A stretch of 64,000 bases of DNA from Pseudomonadota bacterium (GTDB lineage: Bacteria > Desulfobacterota > Desulfobulbia > Desulfobulbales > Desulfocapsaceae). Shown piece after piece: positions 1 to 12,279 of the stretch (position 1 is the stretch's first letter; every line of letters starts with the position of its first letter). Under the pieces are notes generated by a model. That model made no database searches and had not been told where the DNA came from. It saw nothing but the letters and a program-made list of their open reading frames with translations. The translations under genes and the position numbers were made by a program. Location: the NCBI GenBank assembly GCA_018817385.1, contig JAHIUA010000043.1:124001-188000 (forward strand), written 5' to 3'.

Positions 1-1
1 C

Positions 2-94
2 CTCCTTGGGGCTATCGGAATCAGTTTAGGAGAGCCATCACGGGTCCTTGAACAGGCAACGCAAATTTGTCTGTCCTGTATAGGGATAGGCTAG
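2..94 (+). CDS. C-terminal end of a small CD1871A-type CXXC membrane peptide (partial)
   Basis: An open frame enters from the left edge and stops at 92-94, three bases before the next start. The visible 30 residues end in CLSCIGIG, with a CxxC five residues from the C-terminus. This tail closely resembles the one I recall for the short CD1871A family of CXXC proteins, which have one membrane helix followed by GE..VLxKAxxICLxCIGIG. Such peptides often sit beside 4Fe-4S NapH-like proteins and thioredoxins, as here. A redox or metal-binding role at the membrane is inference. The N-terminus lies outside the window. Confidence 0.6.
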   Translation, partial: LLGAIGISLGEPSRVLEQATQICLSCIGIG

Positions 95-97
95 CGT

Positions 98-988
98 ATG
101 GATCGCATTCGTCGATGGGTCCAGGCCCTGTTCTTTCTTATTACAAATGGGTACTGGAATTTTCCGCTTACGAGGGGCATATACCAGGGGCCGCTCAAGG
201 TGATTTGTTCGCCAGGGCTTAATTGTTATTCCTGTCCAGCTGCTACAAGCTATTGTCCCCTTGGTGCCTTGCAGCAACTCATTGCCGGGGTTCGCTTATC
301 CCTTGAGAACGGCCAGTTCTTTGTCGGCTTTTATGTTGTGGGTGCCATGGGCGCCATCGGGAGCTTTGTTGGCCGCATGGTTTGTGGCTGGGCCTGTCCA
401 TTTGGTCTTTTTCAGGAGCTGCTCCATAAAATCCCTTCACCAAAGTTTGCTGTCTGGCGACCGCTACGCTACTTGAAATATGCTCTCTTGCTTTTTATGG
501 TTATCCTCCTGCCCCTCTTTGTGGTTGATGAATCCGGCTTTGGCCACACATGGTTTTGCAAGTATTTATGTCCCGCAGGCACCTTAGAGGCTGGATTGCC
601 GATGCTTCTTCTCCAGCCTGCTCTGCGAGCAAACCTAGGTCTGCTCTTCTTGAATAAGCTTTTTTTTCTTTTTCTTTTTGTTGCTTGGTCTGTTGTGGCC
701 AGTCGGCCTTTTTGTCGAACTGCTTGTCCTCTTGGGGCTTTTTATGGCCTGTTCAGTAAAATAAAACTGGTCAAGTTGCGCCTGGATCCTGAAAAATGTA
801 CCCATTGCCAAGCCTGTCATGCCGTTTGTCCCATGGGGGTGCGCTTTAATGAATCCCCTGATGATATGGACTGTATCTCATGTCTTGCCTGCAGTAAGGC
901 CTGTACCTTTAACGCCATCAATCTTGAAGTCGGAGGGGTATCTCTTACAGGTCAAGCCCCTCAACGGCTGAGGAGAATTCACCCATAA
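98..988 (+). CDS. NapH-like membrane polyferredoxin (4Fe-4S)
   Basis: The 296-residue protein has about five membrane segments interleaved with CxxxCP-type motifs typical of the NapH/MauN/CcoG group (VCGWACPFGLFQELL near residue 100, CKYLCPAGT near 150, FCRTACPLGAFYGLF near 205). It ends in a soluble two-cluster ferredoxin (CTHCQACHAVCP and CISCLACSKAC, about residues 232-270). An extra cysteine-rich stretch occurs near residue 38 (CPGLNCYSCP). Such proteins pass electrons between quinol or cytoplasmic donors and extracytoplasmic acceptors. The partner is unknown, but the CxxC peptide upstream and the thioredoxin/CcdA genes downstream suggest it feeds thiol reduction. Its stop overlaps the next start by one base (TAATG). 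Confidence 0.85.
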   Translation: MDRIRRWVQALFFLITNGYWNFPLTRGIYQGPLKVICSPGLNCYSCPAATSYCPLGALQQLIAGVRLSLENGQFFVGFYVVGAMGAIGSFVGRMVCGWACPFGLFQELLHKIPSPKFAVWRPLRYLKYALLLFMVILLPLFVVDESGFGHTWFCKYLCPAGTLEAGLPMLLLQPALRANLGLLFLNKLFFLFLFVAWSVVASRPFCRTACPLGAFYGLFSKIKLVKLRLDPEKCTHCQACHAVCPMGVRFNESPDDMDCISCLACSKACTFNAINLEVGGVSLTGQAPQRLRRIHP

Positions 989-2340
989 TGCCCATGGACG
1001 AACAGACACATCTCAATGTTCTTGTGGTTGAAGATGACCAGGATATGCGTGAATTCATCGAAGAAATTCTCGCAGAGCAGGGCTATATCGTGACCACGGT
1101 GGCAAATGGAAAAGAGGCCTTGGCAAGATTGGAAGAGGTTGCCTTCCCTGTGATTGTCTCAGATCTTAAAATGCCGGTTATGGACGGTATTACCTTGTTG
1201 GAAGAAATAGGTGCGAGAGATATTTTCAAACCTTTTGTCATTCTGATCACCGCATTTGGTGATATTGATGATGCAATTACATTGATTAATCGTGGCGCCT
1301 ACGATTATATTATTAAGCCTTTTAAAATGGAACAGCTCCTTATCTCGGTTAGGAAGGCGGCGGCTGAGTTGGCAATGCGGCGCAAGATTGAAACGTTGGA
1401 GCAGATTAGCAAGGGCCGTCACAGTCTCCATGATCTGATCGGCAAGAGTCCCTCCATGCACAAACTTTTTCGTTTTATTGAGAAAATTGCCGATACCTCC
1501 GGAAATGTTCTCCTTGAAGGGGAGACCGGCACCGGGAAAGAAGTTATTGCCAGGGCCATTCACCAGATTTCCACCAGAAAAGAGAAACCTTTTGTGCCGG
1601 TTAACTGTGCTGCCATCCCGGAAGGGCTCTTGGAGAGTGAGCTGTTCGGGTATGTCAAGGGGGCCTTTACGGATGCCGCTTCCGACAAAAAAGGATTGTT
1701 TGTGGAGGCGGCTGATGGCACGATTTTGTTGGACGAAATTGGTGAAATGCCCGTGGCTATTCAGGCCAAGATATTACGGGTCTTGCAGGACAGACAGATA
1801 CGACCAGTTGGCTCGAATGTCTTTCATCCTGTCGAGGCTCGGATTCTGGCGGCAACAAATAAAAACTTAAAGGAAGAGGTTGCTGGCGGACGTTTCAGGG
1901 AAGATCTTTATTACAGGTTGAATATTTTTAAAATAGAAGTGCCTCCGCTCAGAGAACGCCGGGAGGACATTCCTCTCTTGATAAGAGAATTCTTGAACCG
2001 CCATGAACGGAATGGAAGACAGGCGCAAGTGTCCAGAGAGGTGATGCGTTTCTTTCTCGATTATCCATGGCCCGGCAATATTCGTGAACTGGAAAATGTG
2101 ATTGAACGCTGTGTCTTTCTGGCAGAAGGTGAAGAGATCTCTCTCCACGATTTACCAAGGGAAATGCTCGCTGCCTGTCAGGAGCAAGAAATCTTTTCAT
2201 TTGCTCAGATAATGCCTCTGGCTGACATGGAAATGAAATATATCAAATATGTCCTGGATAAATGCAAGGGGAATAAACAAAAGACCGCCTCTCTGCTTGG
2301 CGTCAATCGCAAAACTATTTATCGGAAAGTAGAAGAATAG
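988..2340 (+). CDS. NtrC-family sigma-54-dependent response regulator
   Basis: The 450-residue protein has the classic three-part layout. The receiver (about 10-125) has the acidic pair VVEDD and phospho-acceptor Asp59 in VIVSDLKMP. The AAA+ domain (about 150-380) has Walker A GETGTGKE near 177, and a C-terminal Fis-type helix-turn-helix ends at 450. The sigma-54 contact loop reads GAFTDA rather than GAFTGA, a variant seen in part of the family. A second ATG lies six bases in. Translation is coupled to the polyferredoxin upstream (1-base overlap). No histidine kinase gene is adjacent in the window, so the signal is unknown; it may lie to the left. Confidence 0.93.
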   Translation: MPMDEQTHLNVLVVEDDQDMREFIEEILAEQGYIVTTVANGKEALARLEEVAFPVIVSDLKMPVMDGITLLEEIGARDIFKPFVILITAFGDIDDAITLINRGAYDYIIKPFKMEQLLISVRKAAAELAMRRKIETLEQISKGRHSLHDLIGKSPSMHKLFRFIEKIADTSGNVLLEGETGTGKEVIARAIHQISTRKEKPFVPVNCAAIPEGLLESELFGYVKGAFTDAASDKKGLFVEAADGTILLDEIGEMPVAIQAKILRVLQDRQIRPVGSNVFHPVEARILAATNKNLKEEVAGGRFREDLYYRLNIFKIEVPPLRERREDIPLLIREFLNRHERNGRQAQVSREVMRFFLDYPWPGNIRELENVIERCVFLAEGEEISLHDLPREMLAACQEQEIFSFAQIMPLADMEMKYIKYVLDKCKGNKQKTASLLGVNRKTIYRKVEE

Positions 2341-2406
2341 AGCAGAGAAATATCCTCTCCAGTATGCCCGCTTGAGGCAGAGTCTGTCTCCAGAGGTTGA
2401 GGGGCC

Positions 2407-2555
2407 AGGAGCCTGTCCGAGAAGGTCCTTTTCCCCAAACGCTTCGTTACTTTTAAAAAATAATGCTGGCAACAAGAGCGAGATGGCTGCGCTAATTTTT
2501 AGGAATACCTCGATGTTGGATGAAATACCAGTTTTCGGACAAGTCCGAGGCTAGC
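2407..2555. repeat. Repeat R1, copy A
   Basis: A non-coding element of about 149 bp that aligns along most of its length with the reverse complement of 55241-55386. Shared blocks include the CTTCGTTA and AAAAAATAATGC core. The ends are imperfectly inverted (AGCCTGTCCGA at the left, GTCCGAGGCT at the right). This looks like a miniature, transposase-less repeat. It fills most of the gap between the regulator and the lipoprotein. Confidence 0.7.
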
Positions 2556-2578
2556 TATTTAAGAATTTAATTATTTTC

Positions 2579-2608
2579 TTGACAACCTGCTGTCCCCGTT
2601 TATATTAT
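2579..2608 (+). promoter_or_regulatory. Sigma-70-type promoter for the lipoprotein/CcdA pair
   Basis: A perfect -35 TTGACA (2579-2584) is followed after 16 bases by TATATT (2601-2606), or after 18 by TATTAT. It lies about 95 bases upstream of the start at 2705 and just right of repeat R1. The rest of 2341-2704 shows no gene. Confidence 0.6.
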
Positions 2609-2704
2609 TCCTGCAGGGTTGGAAAATACTGTAACAATAGAGTACGTTAAGTCAATGTGGTAACACTTTGAAAAGATAAAACAAACACATCTCCAAGGTC
2701 CAAT

Positions 2705-3136
2705 ATGTCCAGATATTTTCTTTTTTTCTTTTTGCTCACCTTCCTTGCCGCCTGCTCGAATGACGAACAGCCAGGGGTCCCTGTCAACACTGTTGAGACG
2801 GGGGGGCAGGCAGTTGTTTCACTGCCGGCTTCGCAAGCAACTCATGACGCGACTGCTTTTAAACTTGTTTTCTTTTTGAACCCGAATGGTGGGCCATGCC
2901 GGATGCAGGATGCTATCCTGGGTGAGATGACAAAGGAACTCACAGGTAAGGTGGAGATCCAATACGTCAAGACCTCTGTCCCTGGTGATCGAGACATCTT
3001 TTATCAGTATGGGATTCGCTCGCTTCCTACCCTGCTGCTGGCAGATGCAAATGGCAGGGAAATCAAACGCATGCCTCCCGGGGTACAACGTGTTGACGAT
3101 ATCCGTCGCTTGATCCAATCCATTCCACAATCATAA
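2705..3136 (+). CDS. Thioredoxin-fold lipoprotein lacking the first active-site Cys
   Basis: The 143-residue protein starts with a lipoprotein signal (hydrophobic stretch then LAAC, Cys17), so it is expected to be anchored outside the inner membrane. From about residue 48 it follows the thioredoxin pattern, with the cis-proline segment IRSLPTLLLAD near 110 and a helix close. The active site, however, reads NPNGGPCR: the resolving Cys is kept but the usual first Cys (WCGPC) is replaced. That rules out ordinary disulfide exchange by this protein alone. A one-Cys role, such as a mixed disulfide, metal binding or partnering with CcdA, is inference. It is four bases upstream of the CcdA gene. Confidence 0.8.
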   Translation: MSRYFLFFFLLTFLAACSNDEQPGVPVNTVETGGQAVVSLPASQATHDATAFKLVFFLNPNGGPCRMQDAILGEMTKELTGKVEIQYVKTSVPGDRDIFYQYGIRSLPTLLLADANGREIKRMPPGVQRVDDIRRLIQSIPQS

Positions 3137-3140
3137 CGGT

Positions 3141-3806
3141 ATGCTTCCTTTAGAAATTAACATAACCACTCTCTTTATGGTGACCTTTGCCGGCTTCGCT
3201 TCCATAGCCTCTCCCTGCGTCCTGCCTATGGTGCCGATCATCGTGACCGGGACCAATGATGATCACCGGTATCGGCCATTGCTTATTGTTGCCGGTCTCA
3301 GTTTCAGCTTTATCATGATGGGTGTGCTGACCTCTATTTTTGCCGGAGCCGTTGCCGGGATAATGCCGACAGTGGAAAAAGTGGTCGGAGTGGTCGTTAT
3401 TGTTTTTGGCCTTTCCATGTTGCTCGGAATCAATGTCTTCAAACGCTTTACTTTTTTTTATAAGGCCCAGCGCTTTGAAAGTAAGGGGAAATGGTCTGGA
3501 CTGATACTGGGCATTACCCTTGGTATTATCTGGATTCCCTGTGTAGGTCCCATGCTCTCCGGAGTATTAGCACTGGTGGCAACACAGGGGCAACTTGCCT
3601 CAGGTCTGCTCCTCCTCGGGTTTTATTCTCTGGGATTTTCTATCCCCATGTTGCTGGCTGGTTATGCCTCACAATCGTTTCGGCATAGGATTCGCGTTGT
3701 TAATGCCCATCCCACAGTCGTACGCCTGGTCAGCGGATTGCTTCTTGTCGGTTTCGGTTACTATATCCTCAGCTCCGGTATGCTGGCAATAGGGGCTTCT
3801 TTTTAA
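3141..3806 (+). CDS. ccdA: CcdA/DsbD-type transmembrane thiol transporter
   Basis: The 221-residue protein has six hydrophobic segments and the two conserved intramembrane cysteines of the CcdA family, in ASPCVLPMVP near residue 26 and IPCVGPMLSG near 135. Family members carry reducing equivalents from cytoplasmic thioredoxin to periplasmic or outer-face thiol proteins, for cytochrome c maturation and similar uses. The immediately preceding lipoprotein is the likely partner. A second CcdA-like gene lies at 7668-8375, so the cluster has two electron entry points of this kind. Function by family is secure; the client is inference. Confidence 0.88.
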   Translation: MLPLEINITTLFMVTFAGFASIASPCVLPMVPIIVTGTNDDHRYRPLLIVAGLSFSFIMMGVLTSIFAGAVAGIMPTVEKVVGVVVIVFGLSMLLGINVFKRFTFFYKAQRFESKGKWSGLILGITLGIIWIPCVGPMLSGVLALVATQGQLASGLLLLGFYSLGFSIPMLLAGYASQSFRHRIRVVNAHPTVVRLVSGLLLVGFGYYILSSGMLAIGASF

Positions 3807-3825
3807 GCAAGCCTGGATGAAGAGA

Positions 3826-3878
3826 AAGGGGCATGGCCTGGGCCTTTATGGCCTGAGCCAGGTCCCTTTTCTTTTTGC
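3826..3878 (+). terminator. Probable terminator after ccdA
   Basis: An imperfect GC-rich hairpin (AAAGGG paired to CCCTTT, with GGCC/GGCY inner pairs) is followed by TTTTCTTTTT. It lies 20 bases after the ccdA stop, between two convergent genes. Confidence 0.5.
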
Positions 3879-4010
3879 TGGGGGGGGAGTCTCTCAGGGA
3901 AAAGGCATATCAAGGCAGGTCGTCACCTCTAAGCTGGAGAGGAAGATCTGTCGCTCAGTCTGCTCTGGCTGACTGTTTCGTGGCCCAGCCACTGGGGGGA
4001 GAAACGGTGT

Positions 4011-4859
4011 TCAGGGCTGGACTTCTTTTCTCCGTGTTGTCTGGCTTTGTGGATAATAGGGGCAATTGGTCTTCCTGCAGCCGTGGGGATGTTTTGTCAT
4101 ATGCTGGCAGATGGCAGTATCTGGGTTTGGTAAGGGGAGAGCAAACGTTGCCTGGAGAAAATTGATGGCAACCTCAAGGGAGATCCGGACATAGGCCTTG
4201 CAACAGCTTGGTCCGCTGAGCTCAGTTATGGCCCTGACTACTCTCGAGACAAGCTCCATGGTCAGTCGTTGTTCTCTGTCCAGACCGCATTTTGAGCCAG
4301 TGATGACGGCTACACAGGCGCCCAGGGCCGGAACAACACCACAGACCCCGGTTAGTCCGCAATATCCTCCGTGTGCCTGTTTCTCCGTACGATTGAGTAC
4401 TTCCCGAATGTCATGGTTCGTCAAGTTGAATGCGCCACTGTTTTTGAGGGCGGCTATCAAGGCTCCGCCGGCAATAAAGGCATGTTGACAGCCGAGCATG
4501 GGGAGAATGGGAAGGTCCATGCACTGTTCGCTAATTTCCAGAGGACTGCTTGAGACGGCTTGAAAAAGAATGGCCTCGACTTGAGCCAGGGTCTCCTGGT
4601 TGTGACAGCTGTCACAGACGACATGTCCGTTGGCACAGGATATATACCATGTTCCTCTGCTCTGGCAATAGGTGCAGCAGGTCGCAATGGCCTGGGTCTG
4701 GTACTGGAGGGGAGCAGCGCAGACCATGCAGTGCTCATTGCTTCTTTTTTCCGTGACTGTTGACGTTGTTTGTTTTTGCAGCCGGTGCCCACCGCTGTTG
4801 TCACTGGGACCTCAGCAGGCAGATAAGAGAACCGGAGTCTGTGGCGTACTGTTTTTCAT
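4011..4859 (-). CDS. DUF5714-type cysteine-rich protein, candidate selenoprotein (in-frame TGA at codon 16)
   Basis: From ATG 4727 an intact 238-codon frame resembles what I recall of DUF5714 proteins: a zinc-ribbon-like start (CCTYC, then SCANGHVVCDSCH), then conserved blocks with HGGYCGLTGVCG and GPSCCKAYV. That ATG would cut through the expected first CxxC. The same frame extends upstream to ATG 4859, which has a good ribosome site (AAGGAAG). The extension supplies EHCMVC (Cys44, Cys47) and is broken only by one TGA at 4812-4814, reading SAC-TGA-GPSD. A hairpin with the geometry of a bacterial SECIS lies downstream of the TGA (separate entry). The simplest reading is a 282-residue selenoprotein with a Cys-Sec pair. 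Alternatives are a real stop with re-initiation, or a sequence error. It lies between ccdA and arsR, in the thiol-redox cluster. Confidence 0.7.
4779..4814 (-). promoter_or_regulatory. SECIS-like hairpin downstream of in-frame TGA
   Basis: On the minus strand, TGA at 4814-4812 is followed after 14 bases by CAGCGGT, loop GGGC, ACC, a bulged G, then GCTG. This gives seven pairs with a four-base apical loop starting with G, 21 bases after the TGA. Known bacterial SECIS hairpins place a small loop with a G in its first two positions about 16-37 bases after the UGA, so the geometry fits. A competing pairing (GGTCCCA with TGGGcACC) is also possible. No folding energy was calculated. Confidence 0.5.
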
Positions 4860-5221
4860 GATTTCTTCCTTTGCAGAGGCGTAACATTGCCTGTCCCCCT
4901 CTCTTTACCTTCCGGGACAGCTTGGCCTGCTTTGCCTCCTTCTGGGTATTCATGGTAAATGGATACTGATATGATAGGAGAATATTCCATCCCTGTCAAT
5001 CCGCGAAGATTGTTGGCGGTTGCCTTAGCCAGGGCGGCGAACGGGTGGATACCTGAGGAAGAGAGTGGCTGCCTGCTGCTGCTCTGCGACGGCTTCTTTT
5101 GCCTGATGAATAAGTTGGGGAATCGTTTGCAAAAACCCCGATACTGCCAAGCGTCCCCTTTGAAAAAGAGTGCTCGGCGGAATTGATGCTTGACTTTAAG
5201 CAATGGCTTGCTTAGTATGTC
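4860..5221. other. Gap between DUF5714 gene and arsR
   Basis: No intact gene is convincing. Forward-strand stretches look weakly coding but are broken by stops: one frame gives ANGWIPEEESGCLLLL around 5040-5085, and another reads GESFAKTPILPSVPFEKECS and stops at 5215. They may be a decayed gene or chance. The divergent promoters for the DUF5714 gene and arsR should lie here. Confidence 0.35.
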
Positions 5222-5245
5222 CCATATCGCCATATGGCAATATGG
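5222..5245. promoter_or_regulatory. 24-bp palindrome, probable ArsR operator
   Basis: CCATAT-C-GCCATATGGC-A-ATATGG is a palindrome with a single mismatched pair. It lies 20 bases upstream of the chosen arsR start. ArsR/SmtB regulators bind AT-rich inverted repeats at their own promoters, so autoregulation of the arsR-permease operon is the natural inference. Confidence 0.6.
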
Positions 5246-5265
5246 CCAACATGAGGATGCGTGCT

Positions 5266-5610
5266 ATGAAACAATTTGTTCGTGTTATGAAGGCCCTGTC
5301 TGATCCTAATCGAGTTAGGATGATCAAGATACTTGGGGTCAAGGAGCTCTGTGTCTGTGAACTTCAGGATCTTGTCGGCTTGGCTCAATCGACAGTCTCC
5401 AAGCATTTGAAAGTGTTGGAAGAGGCTGGTCTGGTGGACTATCGCAAGGAGGGTTCATGGTTTATTTATCGGCTGAGCAAAGGTGAAGAGTCAGAGTATG
5501 CCAGAGTGATGCTCAAGAACCTCAATGCCTGGCTTGCTGACGAGCCGCAGTTGCAGGAAATGATAGCCAGGCTGCCCCAGGTTGACAGGGAACGAATCTG
5601 TACAGCATAA
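5266..5610 (+). CDS. ArsR/SmtB-family transcriptional repressor
   Basis: The 114-residue winged-helix protein has the family signature. ALSDPNRVRMIKIL starts helix 1. ELCVCEL carries the Cys-x-Cys metal site of ArsR-type alpha-3 helices, and STVSKHLKVLEEAGLV is the recognition helix. A longer frame reaches back to 5203, but it would read through the operator palindrome. ATG 5266 is preceded by AGGA at a proper distance and gives the usual family length. It likely senses As(III) or another thiophilic ion or compound and represses the downstream permease/thioredoxin genes. Confidence 0.9.
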   Translation: MKQFVRVMKALSDPNRVRMIKILGVKELCVCELQDLVGLAQSTVSKHLKVLEEAGLVDYRKEGSWFIYRLSKGEESEYARVMLKNLNAWLADEPQLQEMIARLPQVDRERICTA

Positions 5611-5643
5611 GTTGTATGGGAAAGTGTTGAAGGACTCATATCT

Positions 5644-6741
5644 ATGGAATCGATAAAACCAATAAAGAGTTGTGACGATGGTGGTAACTGTGGTTCGTCC
5701 AGCAGTGGTGTGAACAACAAAAAAATGACAGGCCGCCAGCTGGGGCTTGGCCTCCTGGGCCTTGTCCTCTGGTATCTTCTCTATACGCAGCTGCTTCCTT
5801 TTTCTCATTTTTTTTCCTATGACCTCCTTGGCTTCGAAAAGGGCAGTCATCTCGGTGATTCGATACAGTTTTTTGTTTATGATACCCCCAAGGTCATGAT
5901 GCTTCTCACCCTTATCGTCTTTGTGGTGGGGGTGCTCCGTTCTTTTTTTACTCAGGAACGAACGCGGAAATTTTTGGCCGGCAAACGAGAAAGTGCCGGG
6001 AATGTTATGGCCGCTCTTCTTGGCATAGTTACTCCATTCTGTTCTTGTTCGGCCGTGCCGCTTTTTCTTGGATTTGTCCAGGCAGGAGTCCCCCTGGGAG
6101 TGACCTTTTCCTTTCTCATCGCTGCCCCCATGGTTAATGAGATTGCCCTGGTGTTGTTGTACGGTCTTTTGGGCTGGAAGGTGGCCGCGATTTATCTGGG
6201 GACAGGATTGGCTATTGCCATGGTGGCCGGCTGGGTCATTGGTCGTTTGAAACTCGAACACCTTATTGAAGACTGGGTCCAGGAACTGCGGGCTGGAGAA
6301 GCTGTGGTCATCGAAGAAAAACTGAATTGGACGGATCGGATTGATCGTGGCAGGGAGGCAGTCCGTGATATTGTTGGTAAGGTCTGGATATACGTGGTTG
6401 CCGGAATTGGAGTCGGGGCCATGATTCACGGCTATGTCCCCGAGGATTTCATGGCATCGGTGATGGGCAAGGATGCATGGTGGTCAGTGCCGGTCGCTGT
6501 TTTGGTCGGTATCCCCATGTACTCCAATGCTGCGGGTATTGTGCCAGTGGTTGAGGCCCTCCTTGGCAAGGGGGCAGCGCTTGGCACCGTGCTGGCTTTC
6601 ATGATGAGTGTTATTGCCCTCTCTTTGCCGGAAATGGTCATCCTTCGCAAGGTGCTCAAACCAAAATTGATAGCTGTCTTTATTGCCGTGGTCGGGGGGG
6701 GGATATTGTTAACCGGCTTTCTGTTTAATCTGATTATCTGA
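5644..6741 (+). CDS. ArsP/DUF318-type permease
   Basis: The 365-residue integral membrane protein has about eight to ten helices and the family hallmark TPFCSCSAVPLFLGF near residue 130, followed by AAPMVNEIALVLLYG. The second half repeats the fold (SNAAGIVPVVEALL, SLPEMVILRKV). The N-terminus is short, soluble and cysteine-containing (SCDDGGNC). Characterised ArsP members export trivalent organoarsenicals; many homologues beside ArsR and redox-disulfide proteins have no proven substrate. It lies 33 bases after arsR and is likely co-transcribed. Confidence 0.85.
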   Translation: MESIKPIKSCDDGGNCGSSSSGVNNKKMTGRQLGLGLLGLVLWYLLYTQLLPFSHFFSYDLLGFEKGSHLGDSIQFFVYDTPKVMMLLTLIVFVVGVLRSFFTQERTRKFLAGKRESAGNVMAALLGIVTPFCSCSAVPLFLGFVQAGVPLGVTFSFLIAAPMVNEIALVLLYGLLGWKVAAIYLGTGLAIAMVAGWVIGRLKLEHLIEDWVQELRAGEAVVIEEKLNWTDRIDRGREAVRDIVGKVWIYVVAGIGVGAMIHGYVPEDFMASVMGKDAWWSVPVAVLVGIPMYSNAAGIVPVVEALLGKGAALGTVLAFMMSVIALSLPEMVILRKVLKPKLIAVFIAVVGGGILLTGFLFNLII

Positions 6742-6797
6742 TACTTCTCACCGCCAGGTGAAGAGTATGTTATAGACTTCAAAAAGAGGAAAAAAAG

Positions 6798-7031
6798 ATG
6801 GAAATAAAAGTATGCGGACCGGGTTGTGCCTCTTGTGAAAAGACACAAAAAATTGTTGAGGCAGCAGTCGCTGCTCAAGGGGTTGAGGCAACAATCAGCA
6901 AGATTACAGATTTTCAGGAAATTGCCAAATTGGGTATCTTTTCAACCCCGGCGGTGATTGTTGACGGTGCGGTGAAGTCCGTGGGGAATGTTCCCAAACA
7001 GGCGGAAGTTGAAGGATGGTTGAAGGCCTGA
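6798..7031 (+). CDS. Small thioredoxin-like redox-active disulfide protein
   Basis: The 77-residue cytoplasmic protein has a thioredoxin fold with CASC (Cys10, Cys13) after an extra Cys6, and the cis-Pro segment IFSTPAVIVDG. This matches the redox-active disulfide protein 2 family, which is commonly encoded beside ArsR and DUF318 permeases. It probably reduces or delivers the permease substrate, or serves as electron donor for CcdA; that role is inference. A strong ribosome site (AAAGAGG AAAAAAAG) precedes the start. Confidence 0.88.
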   Translation: MEIKVCGPGCASCEKTQKIVEAAVAAQGVEATISKITDFQEIAKLGIFSTPAVIVDGAVKSVGNVPKQAEVEGWLKA

Positions 7032-7152
7032 GAACAACAGAACCGGACGGCAATGGGGAATGATGGTTGAGTCGTTTCTCCTTATCTGTGTCAGTGGCCA
7101 CGGTTGCTGATCATGATTCGTAACGAACACCACTGGTAAAGGAAGAAATACT

Positions 7153-7539
7153 ATGTTGCGACGTTATCCACAGAGGAAGATTTTTTTGACAGTATTGTGT
7201 ATTGTTCTGCTGCTCCTGTCTTGTGGTGCTCAGGCCAGTGAAGAAAACGAAATACCCGTCAAAAATATGGTGACCATGGTGGATCTGGGGGCCGATAAAT
7301 GTATCCCCTGTAAACTAATGGCTCCGATTCTTGAGAAGTTGGAGTCCGAGTATCAGGGCAAGGCTGCTATTATTTTTATCGATGTCTGGAAAGATTCTGA
7401 GCAGGCCCAACAGTTCGGAATCAGGAGTATTCCTACGCAGATTTTCTTCGACAAGAGTGGCCAGGAAAGATATCGCCATGTCGGCTTTATGGAAGAAAAA
7501 GCAATCAAAAAACAGCTCGATCTGCTGCTTGCCATTTGA
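7153..7539 (+). CDS. Exported thioredoxin-like protein
   Basis: The 128-residue protein has an N-terminal export signal (hydrophobic residues 10-24 ending LLSC, possibly a lipobox). A thioredoxin domain follows with active site CIPC (Cys50, Cys53) and cis-Pro IRSIPTQIFFD near 95. Unlike the lipoprotein at 2705, both active cysteines are present. Placed before a CcdA-like gene, it is a likely extracytoplasmic thiol reductase kept reduced by that protein. Confidence 0.88.
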   Translation: MLRRYPQRKIFLTVLCIVLLLLSCGAQASEENEIPVKNMVTMVDLGADKCIPCKLMAPILEKLESEYQGKAAIIFIDVWKDSEQAQQFGIRSIPTQIFFDKSGQERYRHVGFMEEKAIKKQLDLLLAI

Positions 7540-7667
7540 CATTTGGGAGATGGTGGTGACGTTTACCGTGGTCCAGGGCAACGGCTTCCCCTCACTTGCT
7601 AACGCTTCGCTACTCCATCCTTCCGGTGAAGATGAGGCCAGAATGCGTTTTTTCATTGAGGAATCCA

Positions 7668-8375
7668 ATGCTTGATACTCTCTTTCTTACCATTAACTCA
7701 TGGATGACAGGTGGCCTGTTAGCTGCAGCCGTTGGCTGTTTCAGCTGGGGGATGGTCAGTGTCTTGTTCAGTCCCTGTCATATGGCCTCCATCCCCCTTA
7801 TTATCGGCTATGTGGGTGGGCAGAATACTATTCTGAATGAGCGAGAGGCTATTCCCTATGCCCTCTGGTTCACCAGTGGACTTTTTATCACCATCGCCCT
7901 GGTTGGTTTTATCTGTGTCTTGCTGGGGCGGATGATGGGGGATGTCGGTCCCTATTGGACACTCCTGGTGGGGGCTCTCCTTATATGGGTGGCCATGGAT
8001 ATGCTCGGCATTGCAAGTTGTAAGATGCCTGCTAATTCTTTACATCGCCTGCAAGTCCGGGGGCTCTCCGGTGCCTTTATCTTAGGACTTGCCTATGGTG
8101 TTCTCTCCGGTTCCTGTACCTTTGGCTTTATAGCCCCTATTCTTGCTATCATCACTGTCCAGAAACAAATTGCTTCCGGACTTTTTCTCCTCACCCTCTT
8201 TGCCCTCGGTCACTGTCTGCCCATTGCAGTCGCCGGCAGTTCGGCAACCCTTGTCAAAAGATTCATCAGTAATTCTTCATTTCAGCACAGCGGCATCTGG
8301 TTCAGGAAGGGGGCAGGGGTATTGATAGGTGGCCTGGGGATATATTTTATCGCTCGACCCTGGATAATTGCCTAA
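7668..8375 (+). CDS. Second CcdA/DsbD-like transmembrane protein
   Basis: The protein has 235 residues from ATG 7668 (GAGGA ribosome site). The frame is open upstream to 7596, but that part is unlike the family. Six to seven helices carry two conserved cysteine motifs, LFSPCHMASIPLIIGYVGG near residue 32 and SGSCTFGFIAPILAI near 145. This is the CcdA-like subgroup found beside periplasmic thioredoxins. It probably powers the thioredoxin encoded just upstream. Confidence 0.85.
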   Translation: MLDTLFLTINSWMTGGLLAAAVGCFSWGMVSVLFSPCHMASIPLIIGYVGGQNTILNEREAIPYALWFTSGLFITIALVGFICVLLGRMMGDVGPYWTLLVGALLIWVAMDMLGIASCKMPANSLHRLQVRGLSGAFILGLAYGVLSGSCTFGFIAPILAIITVQKQIASGLFLLTLFALGHCLPIAVAGSSATLVKRFISNSSFQHSGIWFRKGAGVLIGGLGIYFIARPWIIA

Positions 8376-8489
8376 CCTGGGGAAGTCATGACGTCACCAA
8401 GGCAATCGCATCTTTTCTGGCCGTGATCTCAGGCTGGGGGAGAAGATTCCTCACTGCTCTCTGACCCAGAATTCTCGCTTTGCCGCTAT

Positions 8490-9086
8490 TCAGTTGACTG
8501 AGTCCTTGTCGTAAAAACAGGTCCTGATAGAGAGCATTTCCTGCTTGCCCTTGAGAATTGCGACCGCGGTATCCAGGGTTTCTTGGGGCAAAAATTTCCA
8601 CAGGGCTTGCTCTAACTGCAAGATTCTCGGAAAAGCGGCAGCAATTTTTGTGTCCCATAGTTCTGCATAACGGAGGAGGTCATCGGGGTAGACGACTGTT
8701 CGGGTCTGCCCTTCAGGTCGGGCTGCGAAGGGCTCAATAATGTTGAGATAGCCATAATCGTCCGTCAACTCTTCACCCGCCTCAATATCTCTGACCGCAA
8801 TCTCGAAATTATAGGGGGTGAGGCAACAGTTTGAGTTGAAACTGTGGTTTATGTATCGGCCATTATCCCAGCAAAAAATATAGTTTCCCTTATTATTACG
8901 GTATGAATACTTCAACAGTATTTCTTGATACTGCTCGTCGTAGCGTTCCATTTCCGAAGGTTCAATTTCTCTGTCCAGTTTGTCGAGAATCCAGGTGATT
9001 GTGCCTTGGGGAATGGGTCTGGTGGCAAAGAGGCCATAGCCTTTTTCTTCATCTATGTAGCGTACTTCTGTCTTGGGGTGGATCAT
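8490..9086 (-). CDS. SET-domain protein (putative protein lysine methyltransferase)
   Basis: The 198-residue protein has SET-domain landmarks: KGYGLFATRPIPQGT near residue 15 (SAM side), YINHSFNSNC near 77 (the NHS..NC motif), and EAGEELTDDYGYL near 100 (catalytic Tyr region). Bacterial SET proteins are uncommon outside Chlamydiae and a few environmental groups. Their substrates are mostly unknown. It is the last gene of a three-gene operon and overlaps the GNAT gene by four bases (ATGA), which implies coupled translation and a shared job. Confidence 0.85.
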   Translation of the reverse strand: MIHPKTEVRYIDEEKGYGLFATRPIPQGTITWILDKLDREIEPSEMERYDEQYQEILLKYSYRNNKGNYIFCWDNGRYINHSFNSNCCLTPYNFEIAVRDIEAGEELTDDYGYLNIIEPFAARPEGQTRTVVYPDDLLRYAELWDTKIAAAFPRILQLEQALWKFLPQETLDTAVAILKGKQEMLSIRTCFYDKDSVN

Positions 9087-9544
9087 AACGTTGTATCCTC
9101 ACAACTCAGATTTTTTTTCCACAGCAATGCTGTACAACCGTCCTCATAATAATTTTTTTTCAGACCGTACTGATTGAACCCTGTATCGAGGTAGAGTTGC
9201 ACTGCTGAAGTGTTGTGTTCACACACCTCCAGGGTCAGCTGCTTGCAGTGATAATTCGTTGCTATTTTTTCCGCATAGGTGAGCAGCGCTCTGGCTATTC
9301 CCTTTTTTCTGGATGATGGCGCCACTCCAATGGAGTATAGGCGCAGCTTGCTGCTGGTTTTTCGTTTGAGCAGCACCATATAGCCGGTCACTGTTTCATG
9401 ATCTACTGCCTTGACGACAATACTGTTCGCCTTGGTTAAGAGATATCTGAATTGCCGTGGTGAGATGCGGTCAGAGGAAAAGGATTGGTCTTCAAGGGCA
9501 GTAAGCTGCGGGATGTCACTCGGTTCGGCTGGGGCTAGGTGCAC
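9083..9544 (-). CDS. GNAT N-acetyltransferase (RimI-like)
   Basis: The 153-residue single-domain GNAT carries the acetyl-CoA loop VAPSSRKKGIARALL near residue 75 and the C-terminal EHNTSAVQLYLDTGF motif typical of RimI-type N-terminal acetyltransferases. It sits nine bases after the ATP-grasp gene and overlaps the SET gene, in the middle of the operon. RimK-like ligases with an RLAN domain are known to be associated with GNAT genes. The substrate is unknown, but a peptide or small amide made by the ligase is likely. Confidence 0.88.
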   Translation of the reverse strand: MHLAPAEPSDIPQLTALEDQSFSSDRISPRQFRYLLTKANSIVVKAVDHETVTGYMVLLKRKTSSKLRLYSIGVAPSSRKKGIARALLTYAEKIATNYHCKQLTLEVCEHNTSAVQLYLDTGFNQYGLKKNYYEDGCTALLWKKNLSCEDTTL

Positions 9545-9553
9545 TGTCTTTTC

Positions 9554-11023
9554 TCAGGATCTTCGTTTCTTATTCAATCGGGCGATGAACTCTCGCAGGA
9601 TAATCCGGTACAGTTCGTTGCCCAGAACCTTGTCCTCGATACCGTGGTCGATGGAGGGGTTGTCGTTAACCTCAATAACCAGTGCTTGATCGTCAACACT
9701 CTTGATGTCGACTCCGTACAGGCCTTTACCGATGATGGCCGACACTTTTTTGGCAATACGGGTAACCTGCCGCGGCACCATATGGACAGGAATGGTTTCC
9801 ACCTTGCCCGATTTGGTGTGGCCGCTTGATTTATGCTGGTAGATCTGCCAGTGACCACGGGCCATAAAATATTTACAGGCATAGATGCATTCACCATTTA
9901 AGACGCCAATTCGCCAGTCAAATTCGGTGGGTACAAACTCTTGGACGAGCAGGATGGAAGAGCGCTGAAAGAGGGCTTCCTGGAGTGCGAAGTATTCTTC
10001 CTCAGAGCTGACCAGAGAGACGCCGATTGAGAAGGAGCCATCCGGAATTTTCATGACCATGGTCTTGCCAAGATATTCCGAAACTTCTTCATAGGATGGC
10101 ACCATTGCCTTGAAGAGGAGTATGGATTTCGGGGCCGGGATTCCCGATCTATCCATGAGCTCCTTGAGATAGACCTTGTTGGTGCAGCAAATGATTGATG
10201 CTGGATCGTCAATAACCACCATGTCGGCCTGCTGTGCCATCTGGGAGAGCTGGTAGGTGACATGGTTCACCGCAGTTGTCTGGCGGATGAAGAGGGCATC
10301 AAATTCCATCAGTCGGGTGGCATCTTTTTCGCTAATGAGTTCAGCGTTGATGTTCATCTTCTTGGCTTCGCTGACAAAGAGCTGCAGTGCACTCTTGTTG
10401 CTGGGGGGAAAGGTCTCGGACGGATCATAGAAAATTGCCAGATCGTAGCGCGCCGGTTTTTTGCTACGCGGCTGACGCCAGACTTTTTTATTGAAAAGGT
10501 CCAGACTGTTGGCAAAGAGGTCCTGCTGATGGTTGTCGAGTTCAGCCAGTGACAGGGGGCGGATGGCTGTAATCTGTGTCGGTTGCTGGTGATCGAAACT
10601 GATGCGCAGCAAGGGGCAAGGATACTGGTCAAAAATAAAACGGGCCAGTCGTTCGTATTTAGGGTTTTCACACTTGCCAAAAAAAAGATCTAATTGGAAG
10701 CCATCTCGCTCCTCTTTACTAGGAATCTCATGGCACTGGCAGAGTCGGCTCAGTAAGCTATCAAGCTTGAGAGGCGTACAGGTGTCGAATTTGTTCAGCG
10801 TTTCAACACTCGGGATAACCTTCTGTTTGCGGGCTTGAGCCAGGAGTGAGCAGTAGTAGCCTTCCGAGTGATAGGAGAGATCCGAACAGAGATTGATGAC
10901 CAGGTGGGAGTGGTGACTCAATTCCTCTTGCTGCAGATATTGAATCGCTGTGATGACACTCTCGGTGTGGTAGTAAGGCGCCCACAGGTCCAGCGAGTCA
11001 ATTATGATAAATACTGAGTTCAT
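9554..11023 (-). CDS. RimK-family ATP-grasp ligase with N-terminal RLAN-type domain
   Basis: The 489-residue protein has two parts. The N-terminal ~190 residues (DSLDLWAPYYHTESVITA, then YHSEGYYCSLLAQARKQ) match the RLAN domain known to precede RimK-like ATP-grasp modules. The C-terminal ~290 residues have the ATP-grasp core: SGIPAPKSIL, VMKIPDGSFSIGV, FVPTEFDWRIGVLNGE, and metal-binding VIEVNDNPSIDHGIE. Members form amide bonds by adding an amino acid to a carboxylate. It is the first gene of an operon with GNAT and SET genes, suggesting a ligation-acetylation-methylation pathway. Product unknown. Confidence 0.88.
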   Translation of the reverse strand: MNSVFIIIDSLDLWAPYYHTESVITAIQYLQQEELSHHSHLVINLCSDLSYHSEGYYCSLLAQARKQKVIPSVETLNKFDTCTPLKLDSLLSRLCQCHEIPSKEERDGFQLDLFFGKCENPKYERLARFIFDQYPCPLLRISFDHQQPTQITAIRPLSLAELDNHQQDLFANSLDLFNKKVWRQPRSKKPARYDLAIFYDPSETFPPSNKSALQLFVSEAKKMNINAELISEKDATRLMEFDALFIRQTTAVNHVTYQLSQMAQQADMVVIDDPASIICCTNKVYLKELMDRSGIPAPKSILLFKAMVPSYEEVSEYLGKTMVMKIPDGSFSIGVSLVSSEEEYFALQEALFQRSSILLVQEFVPTEFDWRIGVLNGECIYACKYFMARGHWQIYQHKSSGHTKSGKVETIPVHMVPRQVTRIAKKVSAIIGKGLYGVDIKSVDDQALVIEVNDNPSIDHGIEDKVLGNELYRIILREFIARLNKKRRS

Positions 11024-11068
11024 GGGTGAATGAGGGAGCTGTTATTAGTGCCCACGCACGGACGAAAT

Positions 11069-11096
11069 TTGCATGCGGATGGGTATCCGCATGCAA
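11069..11096 (-). terminator. Perfect 12-bp hairpin downstream of citrate synthase
   Basis: TTGCATGCGGAT, loop of four, ATCCGCATGCAA. It lies between the citrate synthase stop and the ATP-grasp start, both on the minus strand. There is only a weak T tract, so it may be a terminator or an mRNA-stabilising stem. Confidence 0.5.
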
Positions 11097-11124
11097 TTGT
11101 TGGTTGTAAGCCTATCTATGATGC

Positions 11125-12279
11125 TTATCTGGATCGTTGGTCAATGTTGATATAATGGAGATCGGTGGGTCCGACATATTCCGCTCGTGGACGGATGAGA
11201 CGATTGTTGCTCCACTGCTCCATGATATGTGAAGTCCAGCCAACTGTCCTGCTGATGGCAAAAATCGGGGTGAACAGTTCTCGTGGCAGGTCCATGGCAC
11301 TGTAGAGTGAGGCAGTATAGAGGTCGACATTGGGGAATACCTTGGTCTGCTCAAGTACTACCCGTTCTATTTCCTGGGTGACTTCAAATATCGTGCTCTT
11401 ACCGGTGTATTTGGTGATGGTTCGGGCATGATCTCTGATGATACCCACCCTGGGGTCTTCGCAGCGATAAACACGATGGCCGAATCCGGGAATCTTGATC
11501 TTGTTTGCTAGCTTGTCCAAAATGATTTTTTCGGCCTGTTCCGGGCTGCCGATTTCTTCGATGAGTTGCATGACCTCCATGTTCGCCCCGCCATGGAGGG
11601 GACCCTTGAGAGCGCCGATGGCAGAGGTTACAGAAGAATAGATGTCAGACATCGTTGCCGCGGTCACCCGGGCCGCGAATGTGGAGGCGTTCAGTTCATG
11701 ATCGGCATGAAGAATAAGGGCGACATCGAAAGCCCGTTCTATCAGAGGATCAGGTTTCTTTCCTTGCAGGGTGTAGAGGAAGTTGTAGGCTATGCCATGT
11801 CCCGGTATCGGTTGGATTGGTTCCAGGCCTTCCCGCAATCGCTGGTGGGCTGCGATGAGCAGTGGGATACGCAGGGTGAGGCGTTGTGCCTTGCGCAGAC
11901 AGGCGTCCAGTCCGGTGCTTCCGCTATCTGGATCCCAGTGGCCCAGAGAAGAAACCGCGGTGCGGATGACTTCCATCGGGGTGGCTGCTTTAGGGAACAT
12001 TCGCAGGATCATGATAGTTTCCACAGGCAGTGCCATGGAGCCTGTAAATCCATCCAGAAATGCCTTGAATTCTGTCACACGGGGGAGACAACCGTACCAG
12101 AGAAGGTATGCGACCTCTTCGAAAGTACTTTTTTTGGCAAGTTCCAGGGCATCATATCCCCGATAGACGAGGCGTCCTTTATCCCCATCAATAAAGCAGA
12201 TATCTGAATCACAGGCGACTATATCGGCGAGTCCTGCTTCCGCCTGTTTCGGCGCCTTGGGGGTGCATGTTTTCTTCAT
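11125..12279 (-). CDS. gltA: Citrate synthase (citrate/2-methylcitrate synthase family)
   Basis: The 384-residue protein is the short (type I-like, dimeric) form. Catalytic motifs are visible: LHADHELNAST, GPLHGGANMEV, GFGHRVYRCEDPR near residue 270 and NVDLYTASLYSAM with the catalytic Asp. It condenses oxaloacetate with acetyl-CoA; a propionyl-CoA preference cannot be ruled out from sequence. A sigma-54 promoter lies about 50 bases upstream and a sigma-54 activator is transcribed divergently, so expression may depend on that activator. Confidence 0.9.
   Translation of the reverse strand: MKKTCTPKAPKQAEAGLADIVACDSDICFIDGDKGRLVYRGYDALELAKKSTFEEVAYLLWYGCLPRVTEFKAFLDGFTGSMALPVETIMILRMFPKAATPMEVIRTAVSSLGHWDPDSGSTGLDACLRKAQRLTLRIPLLIAAHQRLREGLEPIQPIPGHGIAYNFLYTLQGKKPDPLIERAFDVALILHADHELNASTFAARVTAATMSDIYSSVTSAIGALKGPLHGGANMEVMQLIEEIGSPEQAEKIILDKLANKIKIPGFGHRVYRCEDPRVGIIRDHARTITKYTGKSTIFEVTQEIERVVLEQTKVFPNVDLYTASLYSAMDLPRELFTPIFAISRTVGWTSHIMEQWSNNRLIRPRAEYVGPTDLHYINIDQRSR

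Follow-up and report, generated by a model that had tools for sequence, protein, structure and literature searches.

A one-selenocysteine, DUF5714-only relative of MbdU predicted in a Desulfocapsaceae genome

The closest described relative of the protein analyzed here is MbdU, the metal-binding double selenoprotein of NCBIfam family NF045648. In the review PMC13188914, MbdU is listed with the motif CU and two selenocysteine (Sec) residues, citing Haft and Tolstoy 2025, and the adjacent Cys-Sec motif is listed there for several metal-related families: SaoL, SaoC, HgcA and MbdU. Full MbdU proteins were encoded at loci L079 and L074, in records titled Nitrospirae MAGs, and scored 783 and 749 bits against NF045648, which has a cut-off of 600 bits. 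The protein at L079 consists of DUF5714 and DUF2284 according to Pfam, where DUF2284 is described as 'predicted metal-binding'. DUF5714 (PF18978) is also the domain that frames of roughly 1050 codons have in common with the protein described here. The paralogue L062 differs from it in that its DUF5714 follows CC motifs and is fused to an ArsM-like methyltransferase, and that there is no in-frame stop. DUF5714 was named in no paper found in the literature searches; NF045648, PF18978 or IPR043768 appeared only in PMC13188914, which was also the sole selenoprotein paper among the matches listed for MbdU. The DUF5714-only variant itself may be mentioned in Haft and Tolstoy 2025.

The gene under study is located in a window of 64,000 nucleotides, the whole stretch of DNA that was analyzed (contig JAHIUA010000043.1, positions 124,001 to 188,000); coordinates without a locus name are those of the window. 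The frame starts at ATG 4859-4857 and finishes at the stop codon TGA 4013-4011, and the only in-frame stop between them is TGA 4814-4812. When this TGA is read as a residue, frame 4859-4011(-) gives MKNSTPQTPVLLSACUGPSDNSGGHR...NEHCMVC... The features of the gene are the following.

4011..4859, minus strand: gene of a predicted selenoprotein of 282 residues (Sec at residue 16), related to MbdU but with DUF5714 only (translation, Pfam, NCBIfam, homologues)
4865..4871, minus strand: putative ribosome-binding site AAGGAAG (read from the sequence)
4815..4817, minus strand: Cys15 codon TGC directly ahead of the Sec codon (45 of the 48 TGA loci have Cys here)
4812..4814, minus strand: predicted TGA Sec codon, residue 16 (of 55 distinct loci whose N-terminus is visible, 49 have TGA at the same site)
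4779..4797, minus strand: bSECIS-type hairpin; its GGGC loop (4790-4787) follows the TGA by 21 nt, and its stem has 4 bp, a bulged G and 3 more bp
4605..4730, minus strand: zinc-ribbon-like CxxC region, residues 44-85 (C44, C47, C62, C65, C75, C82, C85; alignment A2)
4053..4577, minus strand: DUF5714 domain (PF18978), residues 95-269 (Pfam, E 1e-45)

An earlier note on this DNA had described the frame from ATG 4859 with its AAGGAAG site and single in-frame TGA, the position of that TGA directly after a Cys, and an N-terminal extension that restores the first CxxC (EHCMVC). All of this proved exact: the coordinates agreed, TGC 4817-4815 immediately precedes TGA 4814-4812, and C44, regained through the extension, is lost if the start is placed at ATG 4727. 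Taken alone, the window gene provides modest evidence for Sec. An upstream TGA accompanied by an ATG and a purine-rich site was seen for 4 of the 88 window frames of at least 150 codons, this gene included, and it is the comparison with homologues that takes the Sec signal far beyond chance. We infer the zinc-ribbon label for residues 44-85; Zn_ribbon_PriA gave a weak match, below its cut-off, in homologue L039 only. A second Sec at the final TGA (4013-4011), after which one can sketch a short GC-rich hairpin by eye, was considered and rejected because the closest homologue, L010, has TAA at that place and no Cys nearby.

A search of NCBIfam at E 0.01 returned a single family, NF045648. Residues 13-277 matched profile positions 6-274 of 468 with 351.4 bits, below the cut-off of the family. 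The likeness to MbdU consists of the DUF5714 half and the N-terminal Cys-Sec site, with Cys15-Sec16 aligning with the Cys-Sec of L079, but the window protein has neither the DUF2284 half nor the second Sec. No DUF2284 was found in window positions 1-12000 and no full MbdU match in the genome from which the window comes, where the only other match was a paralogue on contig C37 (132 bits). The suggestion of the earlier note that DUF5714 represents a new selenoprotein family was therefore wrong, since NF045648 has the same DUF5714 half and the same Cys-Sec site. The Sec site is already known in its two-domain form, the window form is the DUF5714 half only, and the protein is best called a one-Sec, DUF5714-only variant outside the curated MbdU definition. 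Judging from the sequences, its kinship with MbdU is very highly probable, and we assign a probability of roughly 0.92 to the joint claim that the Sec is real and that the protein is kin to MbdU.

Close relatives (E 1e-40) were present in 22 of the 257 genomes of the order that includes the window genome, and a class-level search covered the same 257 genomes. The order-level search produced 25 loci, 3 of them cut by contig ends, and the TGA was found in all 22 with a visible N-terminus, preceded by Cys in 20 and by Gly in 2. The likely start was 13-15 codons upstream of the TGA in 20 of these 22 loci; the exceptions were L015 (19-23 codons) and L047, whose start lies off the contig and which was omitted from alignment A2 (21 of the 22 loci). 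Scanning the contigs of GTDB genomes yielded 60 loci, mostly in records titled Desulfobacterota or Nitrospirota MAGs. In total, 83 rows were collapsed to 61 distinct ones and L112 and L114, which the pattern had missed, were added to make 63. Seven loci cut by contig ends (L050/L116, L055/L115, L056/L122, L100, L102, L117 and L120) were dropped, as was L087, identical in sequence to L086 from another record, and 55 loci remained.

The TGA column, which the earlier note had proposed to align, has TGA in 49 of these 55 loci. Loss of the TGA, regarded there as evidence against Sec, does occur in the other six: one has CGC (L106) and five have no N-terminal tail (L105, L107, L112, L113, L114) and carry a Sec-type TGA at the other end of the protein. 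One of the 49, L109, has a frameshift further on and was not used for the hairpin analysis. In the 48 loci used, the frame from the TGA to the domain is open without exception and a Cys codon precedes the TGA in 45. The whole CxxC region is gone in L053, and the Cys-TGA ahead of DUF5714 is kept. No orthologue among the 55 has Cys at the Sec site; in a loose alignment the distant paralogues L017, L018, L025 and L062 have CC at or near it, and a CC or SCC motif was found before DUF5714 in the paralogues checked. From this comparison we consider it almost certain that UGA 4814-4812 is a conserved and genuine Sec codon. As a separate observation, L106 is the sole orthologue seen with CGC. Its stem is down to three pairs, as read from the printed sequence, and no tRNA-Sec match was found in its genome (1.9 Mb, completeness unknown), a possible case of joint Sec loss.

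The hairpin after the TGA has the sequence CAGCGGU[GGGC]ACC(G)GCUG, and its loop begins 21 nt downstream of the TGA, as the earlier note had stated. It resembles the bacterial SECIS model, as given in PMC13188914, in its loop of 4 nt with G first located 21 nt after the UGA, and differs from it by a one-base bulge in the stem and a borderline energy. The window sequence gave -6.4 kcal/mol for the hairpin alone and -7.5 kcal/mol within 50 nt, the bSECIS energy criterion being -7.5 kcal/mol or lower, and a different fold reached -11.8 kcal/mol. When the 50 nt from the TGA are folded for minimum energy, a structure other than this hairpin results (z -0.17, no signal), and the window's stem is among the weaker ones of the set.

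Comparison among the loci gave a stronger signal. A stem of at least 5 bp was found in 40 of the 48 loci, whereas 300 synonymous-codon shuffles gave 4.0 such loci on average and never more than 10, and the mean stem run was 5.23 versus 1.82 (maximum 2.40) in the synonymous control. In this analysis and in that of covariation, the offset of the loop could be 15, 18 or 21 nt and was taken so as to favour pairing; the synonymous control was given the same choice. Covariation was analyzed in 43 of the 48 loci, excluding L045, L084, L090, L097 and L098, which have another loop size. In this set, 92.5% of the cells were paired, against 58.5% after shuffling and no more than 63.5% after sliding, cells with double changes numbered 82 versus 31.9, and the covariation value was 0.833 versus 0.232 in shuffles. 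Both-side changes were found at all six stem pairs, a count that was not above that of the shuffles (250 of 500). The encoded residues vary (GGR, AGGH, SGQT, ADSCQ) while the stem stays. The earlier note had held that the lack of a folding hairpin would speak against Sec; the hairpin is indeed not the minimum-energy fold in the window, but it has been kept by covariation.

The genome has the machinery for Sec incorporation. The selA, selB, selC and selD genes that the earlier note had asked for are all present, with tRNA-Sec at 75.8 bits, SelB at 373, SelA at 607, and two SelD proteins at 376 and 347 bits with one in-frame TGA in each. A tRNA-Sec was also found in 20 of 21 carrier relatives and not found in the remaining one, G107. 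This co-occurrence says little, since 211 of the 257 genomes of the order have tRNA-Sec. In a set of twelve genomes, nine had it; no match over the cut-off was obtained for L105 and L079, and none at all for L106.

The gene is surrounded by the following genes, identified by NCBIfam or by Pfam and NCBIfam.

5203..5610, plus strand: divergent ArsR/SmtB metalloregulator (NF033788, 94.6 bits, cut-off 55)
5644..6741, plus strand: ArsP_1 permease (best NCBIfam match SaoE with 143 bits, below the cut-off of 325)
7153..7539, plus strand: thioredoxin-like protein (Pfam, NCBIfam)
7596..8375, plus strand: DsbD transmembrane-domain protein (Pfam, NCBIfam)
2705..3136, plus strand: thioredoxin-like protein on the convergent side (Pfam, NCBIfam)
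3141..3806, plus strand: DsbD transmembrane-domain protein on the convergent side (Pfam, NCBIfam)

A sigma-54-type regulator (988) and a NapH-like ferredoxin (98) precede the convergent thioredoxin-like/DsbD pair. All eight neighbours are also found around the gene in L064, which comes from a record titled Desulfocapsa sp. and shares its genus with the window's genome. Neighbours and DUF2284 were searched in 62 stretches, many with little flank, and within that limit ArsR genes were near the DUF5714 gene in 22 and a TsoA-like protein of roughly 170 residues was encoded upstream in 24. The latter has an in-frame TGA in the motif MVE[YH]UIxxC in 38 of 38 rows of a position-open pattern, the one test made of it, with duplicates and three TsoA-type rows included; a count of 13 of 13 obtained otherwise tests nothing because the search behind it required the TGA. 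The genes at L012:923-1456(+) and L042:720-1238(+), for example, reached 88 and 90 bits for TsoA, whose cut-off is 170. A best-of search without shuffle control found a hairpin of at least 6 bp at about 21 nt in 23 of 23 distinct loci and one of only 3 bp in the three TsoA-type rows. The TsoA-like protein is possibly a further selenoprotein family; the literature search on TsoA and selenoprotein found only PMC13188914. In L039, L041, L042 and L072 a CMD-type protein with Sec either follows or forms a fusion; it is decayed in L012 and was not found in the window.

Two side observations concern these companion proteins. Sec-type TGA codons of CMD-type proteins (GC[EQ]PU and more near the C-terminus) occur in a DUF5714 fusion at L039:1156-2331(-) and in the separate genes L042:2284-2625(+) and L041:2313-2681(+). 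In the window's own genome, L063 (G000:C69, minus strand) has a TsoA-type gene (NLULAEC) and then a TsoX-like HSGNPAU frame, both labels being given by motif only.

An AlphaFold model built with 21 sequences and Cys in place of Sec had a mean pLDDT of 72.5. Residues 1-40, including Cys15-Sec16, were below 50, residues 50-75 were beta and residues 83-239 helical. A Foldseek search of the PDB found nothing with E at or below 0.001; with no solved DUF5714 relative from this search, the function rests on the neighbours. The link to metals or metalloids is indirect and is suggested by the ArsR and ArsP-type neighbours, the gene order in L064, DUF2284 in full MbdU and the ArsM-like fusion in L062, so that a metal(loid) function is proposed tentatively. 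The first 40 residues, with Cys15-Sec16, would then be a flexible arm on a Cys/His-rich body. This arm may bind a thiophilic metal, metalloid or organometallic as a selenolate-thiolate ligand, and the bound metal(loid) might then be handed on, either to the body itself or to what the divergent cluster encodes (ArsP-type permease, thioredoxin, DsbD). The gene or the cluster would probably be controlled by the ArsR regulator.

The main rival on function accepts the Sec and gives it a role in thiol-disulfide or peroxide redox reactions, together with the thioredoxin and DsbD neighbours, instead of metal(loid) binding. The presence of thioredoxin-like and DsbD-type genes on both flanks agrees with it, as do the CMD/AhpD-type Sec proteins that follow or fuse to the relatives L039, L041, L042 and L072. 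However, the spacer-less Cys-Sec is listed for metal-related families in PMC13188914, and neither the ArsR and ArsP-type neighbours nor the DUF2284 partner domain of full MbdU favour it. We regard the redox role as a serious possibility, though less likely than not.

The distribution of the domains was examined in a tree of DUF5714 built from 52 loci and three outgroup paralogues, where the window falls inside a 20-row clade with support 98/98. No DUF2284 was found in any row of this clade, and the short form is therefore old. Forms with DUF2284 lie outside it, mostly in Nitrospirae-titled records and some in Syntrophales or unplaced ones. The architecture labels of the tree are pattern-made, so that L085 is marked 'alone' yet has DUF2284, and DUF2284 is cut or shortened in L084 and L098. 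The five loci that lack the N-terminal tail group together as one clade (100/99). All of them (L105, L107:4004-4789, L112:4004-4780, L113:4001-4786 and L114) end in AC[VT]TU[KR][PV]-stop, with hairpins of 7-8 bp that lie 17-19 nt after the C-terminal TGA and extend past the stop codon. In L067:1211-2122 and L069:477-1388 the N-terminal Cys-Sec is accompanied by GSSUA near the C-terminus, where the hairpins measure 7 and 5 bp. These C-terminal hairpins come from a best-of search without shuffle control.

The tree bears on the idea that the window gene is left over from a larger MbdU and in decay. The missing DUF2284 and second Sec, the bulged hairpin and the decayed CMD neighbour in family member L012 could be read in this way. 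Nevertheless, the clade without DUF2284 is well supported, the changes with respect to L010 are mostly at third codon positions (5/8/20; body 21/20/56) and the gene order is kept in L064, which leaves little probability for a remnant. Least probable of all is that the TGA is a true stop that closes a 15-residue leader peptide, with DUF5714 starting internally, e.g., at ATG 4727 in CMVC: the Met of CMxC could serve as an internal start and occurs in 46 of the 47 loci with the motif, and the differences between the window and L010 directly behind the TGA carry no coding bias across codon positions (7/10/7), but the frame is open to the domain in 48 of 48 loci, L053 has neither the CMVC region nor an ATG between the TGA and MLGC in the domain and yet keeps Cys-TGA, a covarying hairpin lies at the bSECIS distance, the 4727 start removes the first Cys of a conserved CxxC, and the relative MbdU is annotated with the same Sec in PMC13188914.

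The reading of the gene as a one-Sec relative of MbdU has consequences for annotation and for the family. A curated model that requires two domains would leave the window protein unnamed, and a start call at ATG 4727 would hide the most conserved feature of the protein. The hairpin provides a clear case of bacterial SECIS covariation, where the amino acids change and the RNA stem stays. The Cys-Sec arm occurs with DUF5714 alone. Somewhat short of an even chance, in our estimation, is the broader proposal that Sec is a portable tail of DUF5714, N-terminal as Cys-Sec in most members, C-terminal in the five-member Nitrospirota clade and at both ends in L067 and L069, and that, with the TsoA-like UxxxC protein and the CMD-type protein, both with in-frame TGA, the relatives hold an ArsR-linked selenoprotein set for a soft metal or metalloid; the window would then have a reduced form of this set. 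The analysis points to an ArsR-linked selenoprotein set whose substrate can be sought directly.
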